Assembly: GCA_019634245.1 (NCBI GenBank)
Contig: JAHQVR010000181.1
Span: 1 to 11,751, forward strand
DNA: 11,751 bases
Direction: 5' to 3'
Source: Gammaproteobacteria bacterium
GTDB lineage: Bacteria; Pseudomonadota; Gammaproteobacteria; Granulosicoccales; Granulosicoccaceae
Shown: piece by piece, positions 2,196-11,751 of the stretch
How the letters are laid out: each line of letters opens with the position of its first letter
Position numbering within the stretch: position 1 is the first letter of the stretch
The notes under the pieces: generated by a model
The model's input: the letters and a program-made list of their open reading frames with translations, nothing else
What the model was told of the DNA's origin: nothing
The model's database searches: none
Translations under genes and position numbers: made by a program

Positions 2196-2900
2196 CTACT
2201 CTGTCAAACACTCCGGATAGTGGACAACTATCTGTTTTCGCGAAATAGTTAGCACGCCTTTTTTCTGTAGATTATCGAGAGACTGGGTGACCCATTGCCG
2301 AGTTGCACCCACAATGGTGGCGATCTGCTCGTTAGTCATTGTACGCGTGATAACTGCACTGCCCTCGTGTTCGCTGCTGTGATGATCAACAAGAATTAGT
2401 AAAAGTTGTTGCAGCCTTTCAGATACTGATCGGGTGCCAAGCATTTGAATCAAAGCAGAATATGCCTTCCCTTTACCCTCAAGGCCTTCGATAATAGCGA
2501 TAGATATAGAAGGATATTCAAAGGCCAGTTGTCGTAACGTGTCACCATTTAAAAAAAGCAGCTTGCTATCTTCCATAGCGGATGCAGACCATAAATGCTT
2601 ACCCTTACCAAATACTTCCGGACCTCCTACAAAGTGTCCCATGCTCCAAAAAGCTAAGGTGATTTCTTTTCCGCTGGGCCCAGCATAGAAAGTGCGAATT
2701 CTGCCATCGTCAATGATCCAAATACCGTTGTGAGTATCTCCTTGATTAAATACACTCTCTCCTTGATTAACCTTTACGTTATTTCCGGCACTAACAAGCT
2801 CAGCACGTTCTGTTTCACCTACATTGGCTAAGAAGGACGATCCACAATTGAGTTCGAATAGGTTCTCAGACAGATAGATGGCGGTGGTATCGGTACTCAC
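2196..2900 (-). CDS. Crp/Fnr-family transcriptional regulator
   Basis: A 234-residue regulator. Residues about 25-140 form the cyclic-nucleotide-type sensor barrel, with glycines in the usual turns (Gln-Gly-Asp, Gly-Arg-Ile, Gly-Gly-Pro-Glu-Val-Phe). A dimerisation helix follows near 140-170, and a Crp-type helix-turn-helix at about 188-218 (Thr-Asn-Glu-Gln-Ile-Ala...Thr-Arg-Gln-Trp-Val-Thr). The Arg-Ser pair of E. coli CRP that contacts cAMP phosphate is replaced by His-Leu-Trp-Ser. There is also no N-terminal cysteine cluster as in FNR (only Cys19 and Cys231), so the ligand is unknown. The start is GTG, overlapping the cytochrome c stop as GTGA, so it is the translationally coupled last gene of the operon. 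It probably controls that operon. Confidence 0.9.
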   Translation of the reverse strand: MSTDTTAIYLSENLFELNCGSSFLANVGETERAELVSAGNNVKVNQGESVFNQGDTHNGIWIIDDGRIRTFYAGPSGKEITLAFWSMGHFVGGPEVFGKGKHLWSASAMEDSKLLFLNGDTLRQLAFEYPSISIAIIEGLEGKGKAYSALIQMLGTRSVSERLQQLLLILVDHHSSEHEGSAVITRTMTNEQIATIVGATRQWVTQSLDNLQKKGVLTISRKQIVVHYPECLTE

Positions 2901-3469
2901 TGAGAACGCGCCTGAGAAGCTAAATGCATGGCTACAGCCTCTATTTCAGAATCTGTCCAGCGCTTTAACAGAGATTCGATGTGATCCGGAGTCTCACCTA
3001 AACGATTCCCATCCCGGTAATCACGCATCTGTTTCGCTAGATAATCTTTGTGCTGCGCATGGAGCAATGGAACCATTTCGTCTTCTGCAAGATTCTCTAC
3101 GTGACATTGCGCACACCCAGCCTCATCAAAAAGCTTAGCTCCGTCTGAATTGTCTATCTCGACGGCCGCTGCAGGTTCTTGCGCTGAAAACCAAGCGACT
3201 ACCTGCTCTATCTCGGTGGCGCTAATTTCTGTGACAATATTTCTCATCTGGCCACCATCGTTAACTCTGTTGCCGTTGATGAACGCTTCTATCTGCGCTG
3301 TTAGATATAACGCATTTTGACCAGCTAAATTAGGGAATTTTGGATGTGCTGACACGCCAAACAGGCCATGACACAGGGCACATCGTTCGTATGGCTCTTC
3401 GCCTGAATCTATGGTGCCAGCTTGGGCCACAGTGACGGACATCAGGCACAAAAAGACATACCTTTTCAT
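2897..3469 (-). CDS. dihaem c4-like cytochrome c (periplasmic)
   Basis: A 190-residue exported protein with a signal peptide ending near Ala17. It has two cytochrome c domains of about 85 residues: Cys30-Ala-Leu-Cys33-His34 and Cys119-Ala-Gln-Cys122-His123. Both carry the c4-type segment Tyr-Leu...Gly-Asn-Arg. In the first domain the expected axial Met is present (Met75, after Gly-Gly-Gln). In the second, the aligned position appears to be His163 (Thr-Pro-Asp-His), so haem 2 may be bis-His or otherwise unusual. The role is inferred: carrying electrons between a periplasmic redox enzyme and a terminal oxidase. It starts three bases after the PCuAC stop codon and overlaps the regulator start by four bases. 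Confidence 0.9.
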   Translation of the reverse strand: MKRYVFLCLMSVTVAQAGTIDSGEEPYERCALCHGLFGVSAHPKFPNLAGQNALYLTAQIEAFINGNRVNDGGQMRNIVTEISATEIEQVVAWFSAQEPAAAVEIDNSDGAKLFDEAGCAQCHVENLAEDEMVPLLHAQHKDYLAKQMRDYRDGNRLGETPDHIESLLKRWTDSEIEAVAMHLASQARSQ

Positions 3470-3472
3470 CGT

Positions 3473-3892
3473 TTATTCAATGAATTTGACGGCGGCCATG
3501 ATTTCTATTTTTTCACCATCATCAAACGTAAGCACCAAGGGTATTTTGCCCTGCTTGGCAATAGGCTCTTTCGGCTTCATTAACATGACATGCATTCCAC
3601 CCGGCTCGAAACTTACTGTTTCACCTGCTTCGATCACCAACCGATGTATTCCCTTCATAGAGCTCTTACCCTCCTTCATCACGGTACGATGTAAATGGGC
3701 AAGATCAAAGTCACTAGATATAACCGACACCAATGTTCGCGGCTCAACACCGGTATTTGTAAGGGTTAGGTAGGCCGCATAAGCCATCGAGGCAGGGGGC
3801 ATTTTCGGCACATAGGCATTGTCGATTTTTATATCTGCCCAAGATGAAAAGGTAAGGAGCCACAGACATACTCCACACAATATTTTTTTCAA
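3473..3892 (-). CDS. PCuAC-type periplasmic copper chaperone
   Basis: A 139-residue protein with a signal peptide ending near Trp18-Ala19. It contains the complete copper(I) signature of the PCuAC (DUF461) family: His68, ten residues, Met79, 21 residues, His101-x-Met103. Family members hold Cu(I) in the periplasm and pass it to SCO proteins or to the CuA site of cytochrome oxidases. The start is TTG, supported by an upstream GGGAG, a Lys-Lys signal-peptide N-terminus and a TTGA overlap with the SCO stop codon. Its place directly after SCO agrees with a copper-delivery pair. No copper enzyme is encoded in the window, so the recipient is unknown. Confidence 0.93.
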   Translation of the reverse strand: MKKILCGVCLWLLTFSSWADIKIDNAYVPKMPPASMAYAAYLTLTNTGVEPRTLVSVISSDFDLAHLHRTVMKEGKSSMKGIHRLVIEAGETVSFEPGGMHVMLMKPKEPIAKQGKIPLVLTFDDGEKIEIMAAVKFIE

Positions 3893-4482
3893 CTTTCAGA
3901 CTCCCGACGATAAGTAATTTGTAGACGAGCTAGAAATTCCGCCGTTTTACCCGCATGAAAGGGTGGCTCCAATCGACCGATCATTTTTCCGTTCGGCGCT
4001 ATAACTGATACAAAAGCACTGTGTTGAACATCGTAGAAACCTGAGTCGTCCTTGGGCATAAGGCGGTAAAAACTGTCTGTGGCTTCCACAATCTGATCGA
4101 TTTGTTCTCGTTCCCCAGTCACACCCATAAAATCCGGGTGGAAGAAATTCGCATAGTCCGATACGGTATCTCTATCTCGATCCGGGTCTACTGATACGAA
4201 CACAACTTGAGGAACACTGTCTGGTCGTACTCGCAAAGAGGTTTCTGCAATAGCGCTTTCAAGGTTCCGCATAGTGAATGGACACACGTCCGGGCAGGAA
4301 TTAAAACCGAACATGATCAACGTCCATTTTTGCAGTAAATCCTGATGAGTAAATGTCGTACCGTGATGATCGCTTAACGTAAAACTCGGAATGTCCTTCG
4401 GTTCATCAAGTGTTGTACCTTGCACCTGGGCGAAAATCGTGTTGGAAAAAAGCAATAGTATTGCAGTAAGTAGATATCTCAT
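3889..4482 (-). CDS. SCO1/SenC-family copper/thiol protein
   Basis: A 197-residue thioredoxin-fold protein with an N-terminal signal sequence or anchor (residues about 1-18). The SCO signature is complete: Cys63-Pro-Asp-Val-Cys67-Pro for copper and thiol chemistry, and the distal copper ligand His154 in the Val-Gln-His-Ser-Ala segment. The Val-Asp-Pro-Asp-Arg-Asp motif at 98-103 is also typical. SCO proteins insert copper into, or reduce the cysteines of, CuA-type sites, and some act as redox sensors. The start overlaps the ABC ATPase stop as ATGA, and the gene overlaps PCuAC by TTGA. It is therefore made together with an ABC importer, which is not the usual cytochrome-oxidase setting. Confidence 0.93.
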   Translation of the reverse strand: MRYLLTAILLLFSNTIFAQVQGTTLDEPKDIPSFTLSDHHGTTFTHQDLLQKWTLIMFGFNSCPDVCPFTMRNLESAIAETSLRVRPDSVPQVVFVSVDPDRDRDTVSDYANFFHPDFMGVTGEREQIDQIVEATDSFYRLMPKDDSGFYDVQHSAFVSVIAPNGKMIGRLEPPFHAGKTAEFLARLQITYRRESES

Positions 4483-5324
4483 TGGTTTTGCATCTCAAAG
4501 GCTCGACGGCTTTCTTCGCGGATGATCTCCAGGCATTGTTGACGCTTATCAATGTAAACAGGTTCAGCGGCCATATTGATGTTTCGCGGACGCGGCAACT
4601 CAATTGTTAAATCCTTAACAATGCGCCCTGGCGCGGCACTCATAATTAGGACACGATCAGCGAGAAAGACGGCTTCATCGACATCGTGCGTCACAAATAC
4701 AACCGTGGTGCCGAACTTACGCCAGATGTCCATCAGATTTTCTTGCATAGTCAGACGTGTTTGTGCATCCAATGCACCGAAAGGCTCGTCCATTAATAAC
4801 ACTGAAGGGTAATTGGCCAAGGCTCGTGCTATGCCAACCCGTTGCTGCATGCCACCAGAGAGTTCAGATGGATAATGATTGGCAAACTTCATCAGCCCGA
4901 CCATACTCAAGAACGTATTTGTGGTCCGGCTAATCTCTGTGCGCCCCATTCCGGCCATGCGAGGTCCAAAGGACACATTTTCCGCAACCGTTTTCCAAGG
5001 TAACAAGGAGTACTGTTGAAAAACCATGCCCCTATCGGGTCCGGGTTTCTGCACCCTCTCGCCATCGACCAACACTTCACCCGTGGTGGGTTTGACATAT
5101 CCTGCAACTGCATTTAACAGGGTAGATTTGCCACACCCAGAGGGGCCCAGAATACAAACAAATTGGCCAATTTCAATGTTCAGCGATGTCTTATCGACCG
5201 CCTGATGTAGCTCTGCCCCTTCACCAAACGTGATAGAAACATCTACTAACTCAATGGCACCCTTGTCTTCAGAGCTATGGAGAGGGCCCTCAACAACCTC
5301 TGGATCTGCTGTTGCCTCAAGCAT
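4479..5324 (-). CDS. NitT/TauT-type ABC transporter ATP-binding protein
   Basis: A 281-residue ABC ATPase of the nitrate/sulfonate/taurine (NrtD/SsuB/TauB) group. Walker A is at residues 60-68 (Gly-Pro-Ser-Gly-Cys-Gly-Lys-Ser-Thr). The Q-loop is in Val-Phe-Gln-Gln-Tyr-Ser-Leu-Leu-Pro-Trp, which is characteristic of this group. The signature is Leu-Ser-Gly-Gly-Met-Gln-Gln-Arg, Walker B Leu-Leu-Met-Asp-Glu-Pro-Phe-Gly-Ala-Leu-Asp, and the H-loop Thr-His-Asp. The first ~22 residues are an acidic extension ahead of the domain. The start codon lies inside the preceding membrane-protein gene (8-base overlap) and the stop overlaps SCO by ATGA. It should energise the permease at 5991-7043; sequence alone does not give the substrate. 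Confidence 0.95.
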   Translation of the reverse strand: MLEATADPEVVEGPLHSSEDKGAIELVDVSITFGEGAELHQAVDKTSLNIEIGQFVCILGPSGCGKSTLLNAVAGYVKPTTGEVLVDGERVQKPGPDRGMVFQQYSLLPWKTVAENVSFGPRMAGMGRTEISRTTNTFLSMVGLMKFANHYPSELSGGMQQRVGIARALANYPSVLLMDEPFGALDAQTRLTMQENLMDIWRKFGTTVVFVTHDVDEAVFLADRVLIMSAAPGRIVKDLTIELPRPRNINMAAEPVYIDKRQQCLEIIREESRRAFEMQNQ

Positions 5325-5994
5325 GGCCTGACACCGGATCTATGTTTGTTTGTGCATTGGGCAATGCATGCGAAGTTCGCCACCCAATAAAAAATACCGA
5401 CAATAGTAAGAGCGAGAACCCACTCGTCGACAATAAAGGTCCCATCGACTCCAAAGCCAGCGAGGCGGACACACTCAAACCAAGCATCGCAAGCCCCACC
5501 ACCCAGCTAGGGGTAGCACAGCACACCACCCAACTCATGGTGGCATTAGTCATTGCAACCAAGAGTGATCCGCCCATCAGGGTGGCCTTTGCGCTGCGTC
5601 GGCTGATCGCACAGGTTCGCTCAGCAGCCATTAGTAGACACAAAGAAACCATCGCTCCCATCCCGGTCAATACCAATAGCCGGCTTGGAATTACATTTAA
5701 ACTCCAAATGGACAATCCAGTTCCATAGTCGTAGTTCATTTGACCAATCTCAATCAACCACTCCTCCCGAGCTATGCGCAGTATGTCTGACCAACTTGGC
5801 GTAGAAGCGATAATGCGAGCGATGTTTCCCAACCAGTCGTGGAAGTGGACATAATTTGGAAACGCCTGAAAGCGAACAATCAACGCTATAAGCATTATGA
5901 ATTGAAACATCACAGCCACTAACACACCGTGAAAAAGTAGCCGGCGCCAATGACGCTGAATTACAGAGCCGATATAAGTAGTGGTTAAGATCAT
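5317..5994 (-). CDS. unrecognised polytopic membrane protein with intramembrane Cys-Cys-x-x-Pro
   Basis: I do not recognise a named family. From ATG 5994 the protein has 225 residues and about five membrane segments (roughly 20-41, 103-124, 138-157, 160-181, 187-206), with a likely extracytoplasmic stretch between the first two. Cys158-Cys159-x-x-Pro162 lies in the hydrophobic core, followed by a Gly-rich helix and a terminal Trp-Arg. This resembles the Cys-Cys...Pro layout of small metal transporters such as MerT, though that is only a pattern match. I prefer the ATG at 5994 over the longer GTG start at 6018 because it makes an ATGA overlap with the permease stop, like other junctions here. 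Sitting between permease and ATPase and next to SCO/PCuAC, it may handle copper or be an extra importer subunit. Confidence 0.75.
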   Translation of the reverse strand: MILTTTYIGSVIQRHWRRLLFHGVLVAVMFQFIMLIALIVRFQAFPNYVHFHDWLGNIARIIASTPSWSDILRIAREEWLIEIGQMNYDYGTGLSIWSLNVIPSRLLVLTGMGAMVSLCLLMAAERTCAISRRSAKATLMGGSLLVAMTNATMSWVVCCATPSWVVGLAMLGLSVSASLALESMGPLLSTSGFSLLLLSVFFIGWRTSHALPNAQTNIDPVSGHA

Positions 5995-7043
5995 GTTGTT
6001 CGAGCCCTGTTCTGCCACTTAAGCATCGGGCGTGTGAGAAACTTAACTGCTGCTGTGGAGGCTGTGCCTAAGAATCCTATGACCAACATTCCAACGACAA
6101 TGTCTTGGTAATTGATAAGACTGTAGGCATCCCATGTGAAATACCCTATGCCGTACTGGCCGGATATGATTTCTCCAGCTAACAGTGAAAACCAGCTCAC
6201 TCCCATTCCAATGCTCAAGCCCGCTGCGATGGAAGGTAACGCTCCTGGAAGAACGACATGCCAAAAAATGCCAAAACGAGATGCTCCAAGAGATTGTGAC
6301 GCCTTGATAAGTACATCGGGTGTTTGCTCAACTCCATGAAGCGTATTCAATACGATTGGAAAAAGCGCTCCCAGGAAGGTGATGTAAATTATTGAGCTTT
6401 CTTCGGTAGGCCACATTAAAATAGCCAGTGGAATCCAGGCTACAGCAGGTATCGGCCGCACAACCTCTATGTAAGGCATCATAAAATGCCGTATCAATTT
6501 GGATCTTCCCATCATCACACCGACCAAAATCCCAATGATGACAGCTAGAGAATAGCTAATCAGTATCCGTCGCATTGAGACCCCTATATGGGTGTAAAAA
6601 ACCTCCGTTTGCAGATGCCCTAGAAAGGCTAAAAATACTTTACCGGGTGAGGGTACATTCTCAAAATTGATAAACCAGTTAAAATTTACTGCCGAAGCCC
6701 AATGCCAAATCAGCACTCCCACAGATAACGACAAAAGACCTGTACCCACGACTGGAAGAGTACCAACCAGATTTCGGAGTAATGCCATAAACGACACCGC
6801 TATGGGTGCCAGCTCCTCAGTTCGTACAATGGATTCTTTGGTTATTGCTTCACCTTCAGAGTGTTGAGCATCCAATCCAACTTGAGTGTTAACTCTGGAC
6901 AAAGGTTCTCGAGTGACTATGTCTTTGTCCTCATTCTTAAGAGTAGATACCTCAGAAGTAGCTCGGAAGCCAGTATCGGACGGCTTGCTGACCGGCGACC
7001 CTTCGATGGTATTGGCAGTTGCCACGGTGTAGTCGTTATCCAT
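5991..7043 (-). CDS. NitT/TauT-type ABC transporter permease with long N-terminal extension
   Basis: A 350-residue integral membrane protein of the SsuC/TauC/NrtB type. The transporter domain starts near residue 90 with several membrane segments. It carries the cytoplasmic coupling (EAA) loop, Ala-Ser-Gln-Ser-Leu-Gly-Ala-Ser...Val-Leu-Pro-Gly-Ala-Leu-Pro, near residues 255-280. Preceding it are Pro-x-Pro-Ala-Val-Ala-Trp-Ile-Pro-Leu-Ala, typical of the group. The first ~85 residues are hydrophilic and low in complexity, an extension absent from usual 250-280-residue relatives. No convincing ribosome binding site precedes the ATG at 7043, so a later start cannot be excluded. It pairs with the ATPase at 4479-5324 and the binding protein upstream. 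Confidence 0.93.
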   Translation of the reverse strand: MDNDYTVATANTIEGSPVSKPSDTGFRATSEVSTLKNEDKDIVTREPLSRVNTQVGLDAQHSEGEAITKESIVRTEELAPIAVSFMALLRNLVGTLPVVGTGLLSLSVGVLIWHWASAVNFNWFINFENVPSPGKVFLAFLGHLQTEVFYTHIGVSMRRILISYSLAVIIGILVGVMMGRSKLIRHFMMPYIEVVRPIPAVAWIPLAILMWPTEESSIIYITFLGALFPIVLNTLHGVEQTPDVLIKASQSLGASRFGIFWHVVLPGALPSIAAGLSIGMGVSWFSLLAGEIISGQYGIGYFTWDAYSLINYQDIVVGMLVIGFLGTASTAAVKFLTRPMLKWQNRARTT

Positions 7044-7117: not shown

Positions 7118-8491
7118 TTATCCTTCTACAAAAAACTCTGCAATGGCTTCATCAAAAGTAACAACACTTCCACCATTGGCAGAGGCGAAGGCTTCCGCTT
7201 CACCTTTTCGTAGAAAGGTTGAGAACGAATCTTCTGTTTTCACCCAAAATGCAGTCTTGCCAAAGAGTTTCAACCCAGTCTCAACATCGTAGACATAGGT
7301 AGAGTTAAGCTTGGCGCCGGTGCTTCTCATCTCTGCCATCGCATTCAAAAACGCGCCTGGATCTTCATAGGTTGAAACACCGTCTCGTGAGTGCCAAATT
7401 TCAAGAGGCAACTCTTTATTGGCTTCGAGTGGATCTACCTTGAGATTTTTTTCTGCGTCATAGTCAACACCTAAATCTGCATAGGATGCTTTGACAAAGT
7501 CTTCAGTTATCCAGGCGTCAAAGTCTAACGGGGGAATAGCTTTTTCTTGCACCAGAACACCATGGTTAAATTTCAGCGCATCAATCCACTCAGGCTTTAT
7601 GGTTGGATCAAGTGTTAAATGACCACCTTCCGAAAAGTACAAGTACAAAACCTCTTTCTCAACGCCTGTCCACCCTTCCATCATCGATACGGCTTTCATA
7701 GGATCAGCGCGTACCCATTCACCTGCCTCATAGACAGCCTTAACAAATGCCTCTACAACCTCGGGATATTCAACGGCAAAATCTTCTCGAACCACCACGC
7801 CATGTAAATACGGCACCCCGGTTTCTGAGCCATCATAGATTTTTCTACCCGTGCCTCTAAATTCCATTAGTTCCGACCAAGGACAAAAGTCAGAATGCGC
7901 ATCGATCTTTCCAGCAGCGATATTTGCAGCTCCCACAGCAGGGCTCTGATTTTTAAGTGTGTACTCGGAAGATGGAATGTCGTTATCCTGCATTGCCTTC
8001 AGCAGCATGCCCCAAGCAGCTGAGCCTACAGGGGTGGAAACTTCTTTGCCCTTGAGCTCTGAGATCGAGAACAGATCACTATCCGCAGGCACTACGATGG
8101 CATTTCCCGAACCTTTGAGGTTATACCCAGTTCCTGCGACATACAAAGTTCTAAGACTATCCGTCTCCTGAAACTTCGCTCCGTTGACGATTAATGGATA
8201 ATCACCCATAACCCCAAAGTTCAACTTGTTTGCAAGCATTTGGTTGGTGATTGGACCACCTGAGCTGTAGTCAGCCCAACTAATATCGTACTCAGCATCC
8301 GAATACTCGCCGTCGGTTGGTAAATACTTTTCTAAAAGCCCGAGCTCTTTGACGATAATGCCAGCAGTGTAGGTATCAGTGCACATGGACTGATGCCCAA
8401 TGGCGATTTTAATCTCTTTACCGGCAGCGATGCCGGCTGCGGAGAGAAAAGCGGCAAAAGCTACCGCGTTTATAGCGTGACGATATTTCAT
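7118..8491 (-). CDS. ABC substrate-binding protein (NrtA/SsuA-like) with NosL-like C-terminus
   Basis: A 457-residue exported protein with a signal peptide ending near Ala22-Ala23-Gly24. An AGGA box with a 7-base spacer supports the ATG at 8491. Residues about 25-350 look like a periplasmic binding domain of the nitrate/sulfonate/taurine group (Lys-Glu-Leu-Gly-Leu-Leu-Glu-Lys near 48-55, Phe-Gly-Val-Met-Gly-Asp-Tyr-Pro near 92-99, Gly-Lys-Ile-Asp-Ala-His at 194-199). Mature-domain His33, Met36, Cys37 and Cys203 are possible metal or ligand contacts. Residues about 362-457 resemble the core of NosL, the copper accessory lipoprotein of N2O reductase, explaining the length beyond the usual 320-340. 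It is the first gene of the operon and feeds the permease/ATPase. Substrate unknown; the copper genes downstream make a copper-linked substrate possible. Confidence 0.88.
   Translation of the reverse strand: MKYRHAINAVAFAAFLSAAGIAAGKEIKIAIGHQSMCTDTYTAGIIVKELGLLEKYLPTDGEYSDAEYDISWADYSSGGPITNQMLANKLNFGVMGDYPLIVNGAKFQETDSLRTLYVAGTGYNLKGSGNAIVVPADSDLFSISELKGKEVSTPVGSAAWGMLLKAMQDNDIPSSEYTLKNQSPAVGAANIAAGKIDAHSDFCPWSELMEFRGTGRKIYDGSETGVPYLHGVVVREDFAVEYPEVVEAFVKAVYEAGEWVRADPMKAVSMMEGWTGVEKEVLYLYFSEGGHLTLDPTIKPEWIDALKFNHGVLVQEKAIPPLDFDAWITEDFVKASYADLGVDYDAEKNLKVDPLEANKELPLEIWHSRDGVSTYEDPGAFLNAMAEMRSTGAKLNSTYVYDVETGLKLFGKTAFWVKTEDSFSTFLRKGEAEAFASANGGSVVTFDEAIAEFFVEG
7121..7408 (-). other. NosL-like C-terminal domain within the binding protein
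   Basis: Within residues 362-457 the order of elements follows NosL: Glu-Ile-Trp-His-Ser-Arg-Asp-Gly, Tyr-Val-Tyr-Asp-Val-Glu-Thr-Gly (399-406), Thr-Ala-Phe-Trp-Val (413-417) and Glu-Ala-Phe-Ala-Ser-Ala-Asn-Gly-Gly (433-441), then Val-Val-Thr-Phe-Asp-Glu-Ala (443-449). The N-terminal Cys-Gly-Met copper region of true NosL is missing. The assignment is by eye from remembered family motifs; a profile search would settle it. Confidence 0.6.
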
Positions 8492-8928: not shown

Positions 8929-9807
8929 CTAATCCACAAACGCTTTTTCTACGACGTAAGTACCCGGCTCAGAATTAGAACCTTCCACTAGCCCGTACTC
9001 TTTGAGCAACCCAATTACGTCCATGTTGAAATCGAGAGAGCCACAAATCATGCAACGATCAGCATCACCAGACATCGGTGTCAGTCCTGTCTCAGAAAAG
9101 AATTCATCGGATTGCAAGGCGGTGGTGATACGACCCTGATTCTTATAAGACTCACGAGTAGTCGATGGGTAAAATATAAACTTATCTGCCACGATGTCAG
9201 CGAGAAACTCATGAGTTTGAACGGCTTTTACTAGCTGTTCTGAGTAAGCCAGTTCAATCTTTTCTCGACAGGTGTGCATGAGTACAACACTGTCAAATTT
9301 TTCATAAGTTTCTGGATCCTGAATCAGAGAGGCAAAAGGCGCGACTCCGGTGCCAGTAGCGAGTAGCCACAACCGGTTTCCAGGTAATAATGCATCCAGA
9401 ACCAGGGTGCCTACGGGTCTCGGACGCAGGACAATGTCGTCCCCAACCTGTAGATGTTGAAGTCTTGAGGTAAGCGGACCATCTGGGACTTTTATAGAAT
9501 AGAACTCTAATTCTTCTTCCCAGGAAGGTGACGCAATAGAGTATGCACGCAATAGTGGCCGAGATTTCCCAGACTCACTCTCTTCCATTAAACCGAGCAT
9601 GACAAACTCACCCGATCTAAAACGCAAGGACTCGGGTCGTTCTACGCGAAACGAAAACAGCCGATCACTCCAGTGCGTTACAGACGTTACTCGTGCTGCA
9701 TCAGGAATTCGATTAGACTGTACGGGAAGATCGGAGTTTAACGAATCCGCGACGCCAGACGATTTCCTTGCTTCCTCTGTCTGGACAACTTCTAGCAGTT
9801 TATTCAT
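8929..9807 (-). CDS. fpr: ferredoxin-NADP+ reductase, bacterial FPR type
   Basis: A 292-residue FAD enzyme moving electrons between NADPH and ferredoxin in the cytoplasm. The FAD motif is Arg87-Ala-Tyr-Ser90, the NADP-binding loop Gly-Thr-Gly-Val-Ala-Pro-Phe at 152-158, and the C-terminal Met-Ile-Cys255-Gly-Ser motif is present. The protein ends in Tyr-Val-Val-Glu-Lys-Ala-Phe-Val-Asp, like the Azotobacter-type subclass. Usual members have about 258 residues; here about 33 extra hydrophilic residues precede the barrel. Its start overlaps the ferredoxin stop as ATGA, so the two proteins are co-translated and are probably direct redox partners, possibly for the AprA-like flavoprotein encoded divergently. 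Confidence 0.93.
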
Positions 9808-10136
9808 GCCGCTGGCTGCTCAGAGAAGTAAGTCTTCAACTTTTCAGATACCCCTTCCATTGCATCCGCCTCTGGCAATGGTTCAGTGGTGTTGTAAATA
9901 ATTGGCCAGGTTTGCGCATACTTTTTGTTAAAGGCAATCCAACTCTCAGCACCTGGGTCTTTATCGCCACAGATAGCATCAGCCGGACATTCCGGTACAC
10001 AGACACCGCAATCGATACAAATGTCGGGATTAATGACCAACATATTTTCGCCCGCATGAAAGCAGTCAACTGGACAGGAATCCACGCAATCAGTGTATTT
10101 GCATGCAATACAGTTTTCGGTAACAACGAAGGTCAT
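9804..10136 (-). CDS. fdxA: 7Fe ferredoxin (FdI/FdxA type, [3Fe-4S][4Fe-4S])
   Basis: A 110-residue ferredoxin. The cysteine pattern matches Azotobacter vinelandii ferredoxin I: Cys9, Cys17 and Cys50 for the [3Fe-4S] cluster, and Cys21, Cys40, Cys43 and Cys46 for the [4Fe-4S] cluster, with the extra Cys12 and Cys25 also conserved. The segments Cys-Lys-Tyr-Thr-Asp-Cys and Cys-Pro-Val-Asp-Cys-Phe are diagnostic. A GAGG box seven bases before the ATG supports the start. It is the first gene of a two-gene unit with the FPR reductase (ATGA overlap). It could donate electrons to the AprA-like oxidoreductase, which otherwise lacks an obvious electron-carrying subunit in view. Confidence 0.95.
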
Positions 10137-10219: not shown

Positions 10220-10555
10220 TTGCAGCAGCAACAATCCGCTATAGAAAAAAAGCGAGATAAACTGTTGATTTCACATATAAGAATGGCCGCGAACGGCGCA
10301 TCAATCCACATCAGTTCTCACACTGGCAATGAATCGGTAATCACAGCCGCAGAATTACGAGAAGCCGCTATGGATGCGGGCTCGAAGCGGGAAAGAATCG
10401 ACAAAGGATTCATTGAAGTCTCAGAGAATATCCGAATAACTGAAATCAACAGAGTTGGCTCCACAGGCGTCAACATCCATTTCTCAGATGGGCACCGTAG
10501 AGCGATCTATCCCTATGCCTATCTCAGCAATCTGGCCTCTTTGTCTGACAAGTAG
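10220..10555 (+). CDS. DUF971 (gamma-butyrobetaine hydroxylase N-terminal-like) protein
   Basis: A 111-residue protein whose residues about 14-105 follow the DUF971 fold. There is an opening strand Leu-Leu-Ile-Ser-His-Ile-Arg-Met, an Ala-Glu-Leu-Arg segment near 47-50, Ile-Arg-Ile-Thr-Glu-Ile-Asn-Arg-Val-Gly, and the diagnostic closing stretch Phe-Ser-Asp-Gly-His...Ile-Tyr-Pro-Tyr-Ala-Tyr-Leu. The domain forms the N-terminus of gamma-butyrobetaine dioxygenase and also occurs alone, sometimes near Fe-S assembly genes; its function as a single domain is unknown. The start is TTG at 10220 because an in-frame stop precedes it; a TTG at 10265 is the other option, while ATG at 10283 would remove the first strand. 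It is followed 66 bases later by the AprA-like gene. Confidence 0.78.
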   Translation: MQQQQSAIEKKRDKLLISHIRMAANGASIHISSHTGNESVITAAELREAAMDAGSKRERIDKGFIEVSENIRITEINRVGSTGVNIHFSDGHRRAIYPYAYLSNLASLSDK

Positions 10556-10621: not shown

Positions 10622-11751
10622 ATGGACGAAATCCACCACGGTACTGAAGAAATCGAATGTGACGTATTAGTCATTGGTGGCGGAACGGCCGGCCCGATGG
10701 CCGCATTGAAGGCAAAACGGAAAAACCCTAAAGCCAACGTTGTGCTTCTGGATAAAGCCAACGTGAAACGCTCTGGTGCTATTTCCATGGGAATGGACGG
10801 ATTAAATAACTCAGTCATTCCAGGCTATGCCACTCCCGAGCAATACACAAAAGAAATAACGATTGCAAATGATGGAATATGTGACCAAGCCGCCGTGTTT
10901 CGTTATGCACAGGAGTGTTACAGCATCATCCAGGAACTGGACAGTTTTGGTATTCGGTTTCAAAAGGACAATAACGGTGAGTTCGATGTCAAAAAGGTCC
11001 ACCATATAGGCACCTATGTCTTGCCTATGCCCAATGGCGATACTGTTAAAAAAGCGTTGTACAGGCAATTACGAAAAAGCCGTATCAATATAATCAATCG
11101 ATATATGGCAACAAGGCTATTAACCTCCGACAATCGAGCCGCGGGTGCAATTTGTGTAAACACGCGGACAGCTGAATTTTTAGTCGTCAAGGCCAAAGCC
11201 GTCATTATGTGCTTGGGAGCGGCCGGTCGTTTAGGTTTGCCAACTTCCGGATATATGTTTGGCACCTACGAAAATGCCGCAAACAGCGGCGAAGGATACG
11301 CTATGGCCTACCACGCAGGTGCTGCCTTAGCTAATCTTGAGTGCTTTCAAATAAACCCACTCATTAAAGACTACAACGGACCAGCCTGTGCTTATGTTGC
11401 TGGCCCTATGGGGGGTTACACAACCAATGCCGGTGGAGAACGTTTTATTGAATGTGACTACTGGTCGGGGCAAATGATGCAGGAGTTTTTCGATGAACTC
11501 CAATCCGGTAATGGACCTGTTTTCCTAAAATTGAACCATCTTGCTGAGGAAACCATTAGCGAAATAGAACGGGTGCTACACATTGTTGAACGTCCAACAC
11601 GCGGTCATTTTCATCAAGGGCGTGGTACCGACTATCGCAAACAGATGATAGAGATGCACATATCGGAAATCGGTTTTTGCTCTGGACACTCAGCTTCTGG
11701 CGTGTACGTTGATGAAAACGCCCGCACCACTATCCAAGGGCTGTATGCCGC
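10622..11751 (+). CDS. AprA-like FAD-dependent oxidoreductase, partial at 3' end
   Basis: The first 376 codons of a flavoprotein that runs off the window; the frame is open throughout. It belongs to the fumarate reductase/succinate dehydrogenase/APS reductase alpha flavoprotein superfamily. The dinucleotide-binding motif is Gly19-Gly-Gly-Thr-Ala-Gly24, and Asp-Lys-Ala-Asn-Val-Lys-Arg-Ser-Gly-Ala near 50-60 is shared with APS reductase alpha (AprA). Later motifs include Gly-Ala-Ala-Gly-Arg-Leu-Gly-Leu and Cys-Ser-Gly-His-Ser-Ala-Ser-Gly. An AGGA box nine bases upstream supports the ATG. True AprA works with AprB; no AprB-type partner is visible, but a 7Fe ferredoxin and FPR are encoded close by. 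The substrate is unknown: APS/sulfite, fumarate-like and other chemistry all remain open. Confidence 0.85.
   Translation, partial: MDEIHHGTEEIECDVLVIGGGTAGPMAALKAKRKNPKANVVLLDKANVKRSGAISMGMDGLNNSVIPGYATPEQYTKEITIANDGICDQAAVFRYAQECYSIIQELDSFGIRFQKDNNGEFDVKKVHHIGTYVLPMPNGDTVKKALYRQLRKSRINIINRYMATRLLTSDNRAAGAICVNTRTAEFLVVKAKAVIMCLGAAGRLGLPTSGYMFGTYENAANSGEGYAMAYHAGAALANLECFQINPLIKDYNGPACAYVAGPMGGYTTNAGGERFIECDYWSGQMMQEFFDELQSGNGPVFLKLNHLAEETISEIERVLHIVERPTRGHFHQGRGTDYRKQMIEMHISEIGFCSGHSASGVYVDENARTTIQGLYA

Follow-up and report, generated by a model that had tools for sequence, protein, structure and literature searches.

In an 11,751-nucleotide stretch of a gammaproteobacterial genome (the window, by which we mean the whole stretch that was analysed), we identified an ABC importer operon whose substrate-binding protein joins SsuA/TauA-type lobes to a C-terminal NosL-type domain and carries two cysteines at or beside the predicted ligand site. 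We assign a probability of about one half to the explanation that this is an importer of the sulfur-oxyanion type that was re-tooled in the window's clade for copper or thiol chemistry. A preliminary description of this DNA had noted a binding protein with a NosL-like tail and had interpreted the tail as the link between import and copper. The observation as a whole was confirmed, including the fusion to a NosL-homologous domain beside the copper chaperone genes SCO and PCuAC, while the interpretation stood only in part, as the tail does not appear to be that link.

The gene for the binding protein lies at 7118..8491 on the minus strand, and the open reading frame encodes exactly 457 residues, the length given previously; the strand had not been stated. 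The NrtA/SsuA-like character also noted before was borne out by matches to PF09084 (E = 5.9e-11) and PF13379 (E = 4.6e-8), which place the protein in an NMT1/SsuA-like class, and its SsuA_fam score of 113.2 bits, below the model cut-off of 163.5, places it outside the curated SsuA family. An AlphaFold2 model built from a 123-row alignment (mean pLDDT 94.4), together with a fold search, indicated the two-lobe SsuA/TauA-type fold. The lobes cover about residues 24-345 (7457..8422, minus strand) and are followed by the NosL-type tail at residues ~360-451 (7139..7414, minus strand). The signal peptide was judged by eye. Cys37 and Cys203 are the sole cysteines, and the N-terminal cysteine that would serve as a NosL-style lipid anchor is absent. 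With a cognate permease and ATPase encoded in the same operon, the protein is predicted to be the periplasmic receptor of an ABC importer.

Transcription on the minus strand runs from the ferredoxin FdxA (9804..10136; NCBIfam 147.4 bits, cut-off 135) through a ferredoxin-NADP reductase-like protein (8929..9807) and a gap of 437 bases to the binding protein, and after a further 74 bases to the permease (5991..7043; BPD_transp_1, E = 2.2e-24). The permease is followed, always on the minus strand, by a membrane protein with a Cys-Cys pair (5317..6018; Cys166-Cys167, bases 5518-5523), the importer ATPase (4479..5324; ABC_tran, E = 3.4e-33), a SCO1/SenC copper chaperone (3889..4482), a PCuAC copper chaperone (3473..3892), a c-type cytochrome with two matched stretches (2897..3469; Cytochrom_C, E = 2.8e-15) and a Crp/Fnr-type regulator (2196..2900). 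Between the permease and the regulator, adjacent genes either overlap or are separated by no more than 3 bases. The SCO gene shares 4 bases with the ATPase gene and another 4 with the gene for PCuAC; these overlaps and the domain matches agree with the earlier statement that SCO and PCuAC belong to the operon of the binding protein. Two genes are divergent, on the plus strand, and encode a GBBH-like_N (DUF971-type) protein (10220..10555; PF06155, 49 bits) and an APS/PAPS-reductase-like flavoprotein of family PRK08275 that is cut by the window end (10622..11749; 723.7 bits, cut-off 587). Within the window, neither a HEAT protein profile nor, at threshold, any Rfam family gave a match. A promoter scan near the gene for the binding protein returned no excess of sites over shuffled sequence (3 versus 2.4), while terminator-like sites exceeded the shuffles (5 versus 1.7).

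The metal ligands of both chaperones are kept. SCO has its CxxxC motif and conserved histidine (C63, C67 and H154 in 51/51), and PCuAC has H68, H101 and M103 in 38/38 and M79 in 37/38, four residues that we take to be its Met/His copper motif. Both cysteines of the membrane protein are present in 53 of 58 homologs; four have only one of them (L017, L027, L060 and L061), and one sequence (L048) is incomplete there. This protein had no Pfam or NCBIfam match above cut-off, and it may represent a novel family that transports metals or thiols. An apparent fusion of the membrane protein to SCO in L060 was rejected, as the long frame reads as GC-rich run-on sequence ahead of SCO and no single frame matched the two proteins.

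For TauA, the structural report gives Gln30, Gly61 and Gly79 as sulfonate contacts, the contact at the Gly79 position being made through the main chain, and names Trp176 and Asp205 as further ligand-site residues (PMC6906117). The three contact residues are kept in the window's protein as Gln34, Gly78 and Gly96, the glycines being mapped from an alignment to TauA (6ssy) and Gln34 from the alignment offset. Gln34 begins the segment Gln34-Ser35-Met36-Cys37 (8381..8392, minus strand), in which Cys37 shares its loop. In the segment His199-x-Asp201-Phe202-Cys203 (7883..7897, minus strand), Phe202 aligns with Trp176 of TauA and Cys203 adjoins it, and His230 (7802..7804, minus strand) takes the position of Asp205 by alignment. 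This mapping places Cys37 and Cys203 at or adjoining predicted ligand-site positions in the window's clade.

Gln34, Gly78, Gly96 and Phe202 are invariant in 123/123 relatives. The same is true of Cys37, His199, Cys203 and His230, with Cys37 present partly by construction in the 68 loci found by DNA patterns that contain its motif, and Cys203 lying outside those patterns. A cluster of His33, Met36 and Cys37, plus Cys203, had been pointed out before, and all four residues are present; the two cysteines held across the 123 relatives, while His33 (108/123) and Met36 (104/123) did not. So the residues that matter are probably Cys37 and Cys203 together with His199 and His230, two histidines missing from the earlier list. 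Among 31 ordinary binding proteins, aligned at low similarity and with position 37 uncovered, none had Cys203 or His199 and six had His230.

The tail is homologous to NosL at the level of the family, as judged from profile matches, with the window's protein alone falling below the cut-off. PF05573 matched the latter at E = 0.058 (14.2 bits, cut-off 24) and was a precomputed domain in none of the 120 nearest relatives listed for it. Among 37 diverse family members, 8 matched PF05573 at E<=0.05 (best 1.3e-6), and the precomputed domain was carried by 96 of the best 120 relatives of one Rokubacterial member and by 2 of the best 120 relatives of another family member. The tail from a Rokubacterial genome reached 31.1 bits over NosL profile positions 34-127 (cut-off 24). 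Five of seven distant plasmid relatives matched at E<=0.1, two of them above the cut-off (Methylocystis, 28.1 bits; Pseudanabaena, 24.1 bits), and the remaining two (Gordonia and Paraburkholderia) had no NosL match at E<=0.1. A comparison of the tail profile with seven NosL proteins, for which two Rokubacterial proteins were added of nine tried (only those two hold the motif used for finding), gave a probability of 92.5, P = 4.7e-7 and a score of 43.3, compared with at most 20.1 in 100 column-shuffled controls; the binding lobes compared with NosL in the same way gave a probability of 0.4.

Structural comparisons pointed in the same direction. Searched against the PDB, the tail profile retrieved NosL chains first, weakly (E 0.021-0.093), and a single Rokubacterial tail did so more strongly, its four top matches being NosL chains (1e-4 to 0.022); PDB chains 7osf-7osj are named copper-binding lipoprotein NosL. 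The AlphaFold2 model predicts at high confidence that residues 363-444 form two beta-beta-alpha-beta units, namely strands 363-367 and 371-375, helix 378-391 and strand 395-402 in the first, and strands 415-418 and 423-426, helix 429-438 and strand 442-444 in the second, with a short strand at 408-410 between them. NosL is reported to consist of two such units, with CXM as the copper(I) motif (PMC6530538). Rows of the VIA-align fold search span mainly model residues 23-351 and have little bearing on the tail; NosL was not among the 50 rows listed, and four Thi5 rows had ranges up to 412. It is extremely improbable that the likeness of the tail to NosL is accidental or that the tail belongs to the NrtA/CmpA fold as an additional lobe. 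The match of the window's protein at just E 0.058, a fold search that did not reach the tail and the two unmatched distant members fit that possibility, but some relatives exceed the Pfam cut-off, the PDB search with a relative's tail puts NosL chains in the first four places, and the fold-search rows of NrtA, CmpA and SsuA stop at model residue 331-355, with NrtA and CmpA stopping at 351. The resemblance to NosL proposed in the preliminary description is upheld by the family-level matches and the profile comparison; of the outcomes it had named as refuting, neither a lack of any NosL match nor an added NrtA/CmpA lobe was observed. We found no description of a binding protein fused to NosL in the literature.

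We consider it very unlikely that the tail itself binds copper and ties import to copper delivery, as had been proposed. The NosL homology is genuine and the operon contains copper genes, but the CXM (Cys-Gly-Met) copper motif is absent from the tail, as had already been recognised; the Rokubacterial match begins only at NosL profile position 34, and across the relatives aligned the tail has no conserved Cys, Met or His. Moreover, homologs that keep the same tail without copper genes, which the proposal had itself named as evidence against it, were found. The tail is kept in 17/17 examined plasmid relatives that lack SCO, PCuAC and the Cys-Cys membrane protein (mostly within 8-9 kb on each side) and in five of seven sampled genomes, whose operons have none of these genes (the sequence of a sixth breaks off just after the ATPase); within the window's clade, it is also present at 5 of 52 loci with neither SCO nor PCuAC within 6 kb (L041, L044, L047, L058 and L059). 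The tail is therefore independent of the copper genes, occurring both with and without them. Given that NosL acts together with an ABC transporter (NosDFY) and that the tail has no metal ligands of its own, it may instead be a docking or closure domain without a metal. A separate NosL gene was found in just 7 of 32 searched genomes that have the fusion protein, and a link to nitrous oxide reduction was dropped on this count. The genome L077 (that of L040, Azospirillum) contains a second weak NosL match (E = 0.002), in a stretch with a frame that has a Cys-Gly-Met motif.

To describe the gene neighborhood across the window's clade, we used 62 of 68 loci, leaving out those that were partial or broken (L062-L066 and L068); L055, which has a run-on frame, was excluded from alignments, and its end was set by hand for the neighborhood count. 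In the 52 loci with at least 6 kb of downstream sequence, the permease and the ATPase were each present in 51, the membrane protein in 49, SCO in 47, cytochrome c in 45, and PCuAC and Crp in 35 each. Where about 10 kb was available on both sides (41 loci), the flavoprotein and a HEAT protein were each found in 37, SCO in 38 and PCuAC in 29. Three loci have both cysteines, yet neither SCO nor the membrane protein (L041, L058 and L059), and two others lack SCO and PCuAC (L044 and L047). A thioredoxin-like gene cluster was present in 13 of 68 loci and a DsbA/ScsC-like one in 12 of 68, with one member of each identified. PCuAC occurred genome-wide in 32/32 genomes, and this count was set aside as uninformative. 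The receptors of L057 (Acidocella) and L058 (Thiomonas) are very similar (end branches 0.025 and 0.068), which suggests transfer between distant bacteria.

A tblastn search retrieved 42 plasmid records, 39 of which cover 80% or more of the protein at a single site. We examined 18 of the 42 and did not count one with a cut gene (L120), leaving 17. In these, position 37 is Thr (16) or Val (1) and position 203 is Val (17), while His230, Gln34 and Gly78 are each present in 17, His199 in 15 and Gly96 in 7 (Ala in 10). Within the sequence available (mostly 8-9 kb on each side), none of the 17 loci encodes SCO, PCuAC, the membrane protein or the cytochrome; the flavoprotein and the HEAT protein are each encoded at 15/17. 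Neighbors named for sulfur metabolism occur at 5 of 15 annotated plasmid loci, a raw count from which weaker cases were left out: TauE/SafE at two, arylsulfatase at two (one with SulP), and tauA with ssuD at one. At L121 and L125 (Gordonia and Paraburkholderia), genes for arylsulfatase and formylglycine-generating enzyme are found close to the importer, a hint that the ligand may derive from sulfate esters. The uncounted Acidithiobacillus caldus plasmid copy (L120, 8914-9912) ends beside an ISL3-like insertion element, and its alignment extends only to residue 313, short of the tail.

When genomes from two classes were searched (369 and 385), 5 and 4 matches were returned, one in each being the centre itself, and these numbers are lower bounds, as about four candidates were scored per genome. 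Of the seven sampled genomes, one (L138) has both cysteines with SCO and the membrane protein, and two (L139 and L142) have Cys203 without Cys37 and neither gene; the latter are possible intermediates between two receptor types. The other four (L136, L137, L140 and L141) have neither cysteine and no membrane protein, and no SCO gene lies in the operon in the three that could be judged. L140 does have a SCO gene at a distance of about 8 kb, past other transporter genes, and in L141 the contig ends about 0.5 kb after the ATPase, a locus scored as without SCO in the tree count.

The cysteine pair, and not the tail, goes with the copper genes. The clade with both cysteines has SCO at 47/52 and the membrane protein at 49/52 loci, and the 17 plasmid relatives have neither the cysteines nor the genes. 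The tree used to evaluate this pattern was built from 55 of 88 rows after columns 37 and 203 had been masked, with L045, L056 and L057 unscored for neighbors. It shows two changes each for Cys37 and Cys203, four for SCO and three for the membrane protein. Because this leaves only one or two independent contrasts, with which a sign test cannot reach significance, the association is suggestive and is not established.

Taken at its even odds, the re-tooling explanation would run as follows. The ancestral ligand would be a small sulfur oxyanion or a sulfonate that is imported and then processed by the flavoprotein module; genes for the APS/PAPS-reductase-like flavoprotein, ferredoxins, the HEAT protein and, in many cases, a DUF971 protein accompany the importer and its relatives, and in the more distant relatives examined, copper genes are missing from this setting. 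The re-tooled site may hold a soft metal, for which Cu(I) is the likeliest candidate, either by itself or in complex with the sulfur ligand, or it may capture a thiol, and SCO, PCuAC and the Cys-Cys protein would serve the same chemistry, with the tail acting in docking or closure. A sulfur-type ligand is favored by the conserved oxyanion positions together with the flavoprotein module, and a soft metal or thiol in the window's clade is favored by the cysteines and added genes. Several observations count against this explanation: Cys37 changes just twice on the tree, with the few contrasts this affords; three loci with both cysteines lack SCO and the membrane protein, and two further loci lack SCO and PCuAC; PCuAC is missing in 17/52 clade loci; four membrane proteins have a single cysteine of the pair; and Gly96 is replaced by Ala in 10/17 plasmid relatives, though TauA uses the main chain there.

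The same observations can be read in two other ways. In a dedicated copper importer, Cys37, Cys203 and His230 would together bind Cu(I) itself or a small copper chelate, which would be passed on by way of the Cys-Cys protein, SCO and PCuAC, the sulfur context being inherited and no longer descriptive of the ligand. The invariance of two cysteines and two histidines in 123/123 relatives, the Cys-Cys pair in 53/58 membrane proteins, the kept metal ligands of SCO and PCuAC and the presence of SCO at 47/52 loci all agree with this. However, the Gln/Gly/Gly oxyanion positions are equally invariant in the 123, and the flavoprotein module is linked about as tightly as SCO (37 versus 38 of 41 loci), and we regard a dedicated copper importer as rather unlikely. 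We judge as quite improbable a thiol-redox receptor, in which Cys37 and Cys203 would be linked to each other by a disulfide or would bind a thiol-type sulfur compound as a mixed disulfide, with SCO and neighboring TlpA- or DsbA-like proteins serving as thiol reductases rather than copper carriers. Exactly two cysteines occur in 79/123 members, thioredoxin-like and DsbA/ScsC-like genes lie at 13 and 12 of the 68 loci, and in DszB, an enzyme of the same fold, the residue mutated in a deposited complex is Cys27 (from the entry title), which would lie near model residue 34 if the aligned range is ungapped. However, PCuAC, for which we know of no thiol-redox role, is present at 35/52 loci, and His199 and His230 would be left unexplained.

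A more specific scheme can also be drawn, though we consider it unlikely. Two cysteines and one histidine on the sulfonate-receptor scaffold would hold Cu(I), with or without an accompanying sulfur oxyanion, and the receptor would relay it along the cysteine pairs of receptor, membrane protein and SCO, while the NosL-type domain, having lost its own copper, would serve for docking. Such a system would have evolved from a sulfur-uptake module that acquired two cysteines and a copper cassette, and the members with Cys203 alone would represent intermediate stages. To our knowledge, copper uptake through the receptor of an ABC importer is poorly understood, and we found no literature description of the recurrent module of APS/PAPS-reductase-like flavoprotein, ferredoxins, HEAT and DUF971 proteins. 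Because the two receptor types differ at two ligand-site positions and in the copper cassette, and Cys203-only members also exist, metal versus sulfur specificity is directly testable in this family.

Several known systems resemble parts of this one. The binding protein differs from TauA and SsuA by His230 at the Asp205 position, a cysteine beside the Trp176 position, the extra tail and an SsuA_fam score below the cut-off. With its vicinal cysteine pair in a hydrophobic stretch, the membrane protein presumably resembles MerT, of the MerF/MerT mercury transport proteins; however, it scores 14 bits against MerF (cut-off 50) and is a larger protein in another context. The flavoprotein family aligns with AprA, the APS/PAPS reductase alpha subunit (8a8o), over residues 12-551 (E = 5.5e-61), although the flavoprotein is assigned to the separate family PRK08275. 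The tail shares homologous sequence and two beta-beta-alpha-beta units with NosL, the copper chaperone for nitrous oxide reductase, but NosL is a free lipoprotein with CXM, whereas the tail is a fused domain without it. As in the NosDFY-NosL machinery, a NosL-type domain is paired with an ABC transporter, here without the copper motif and fused to the receptor of an importer.
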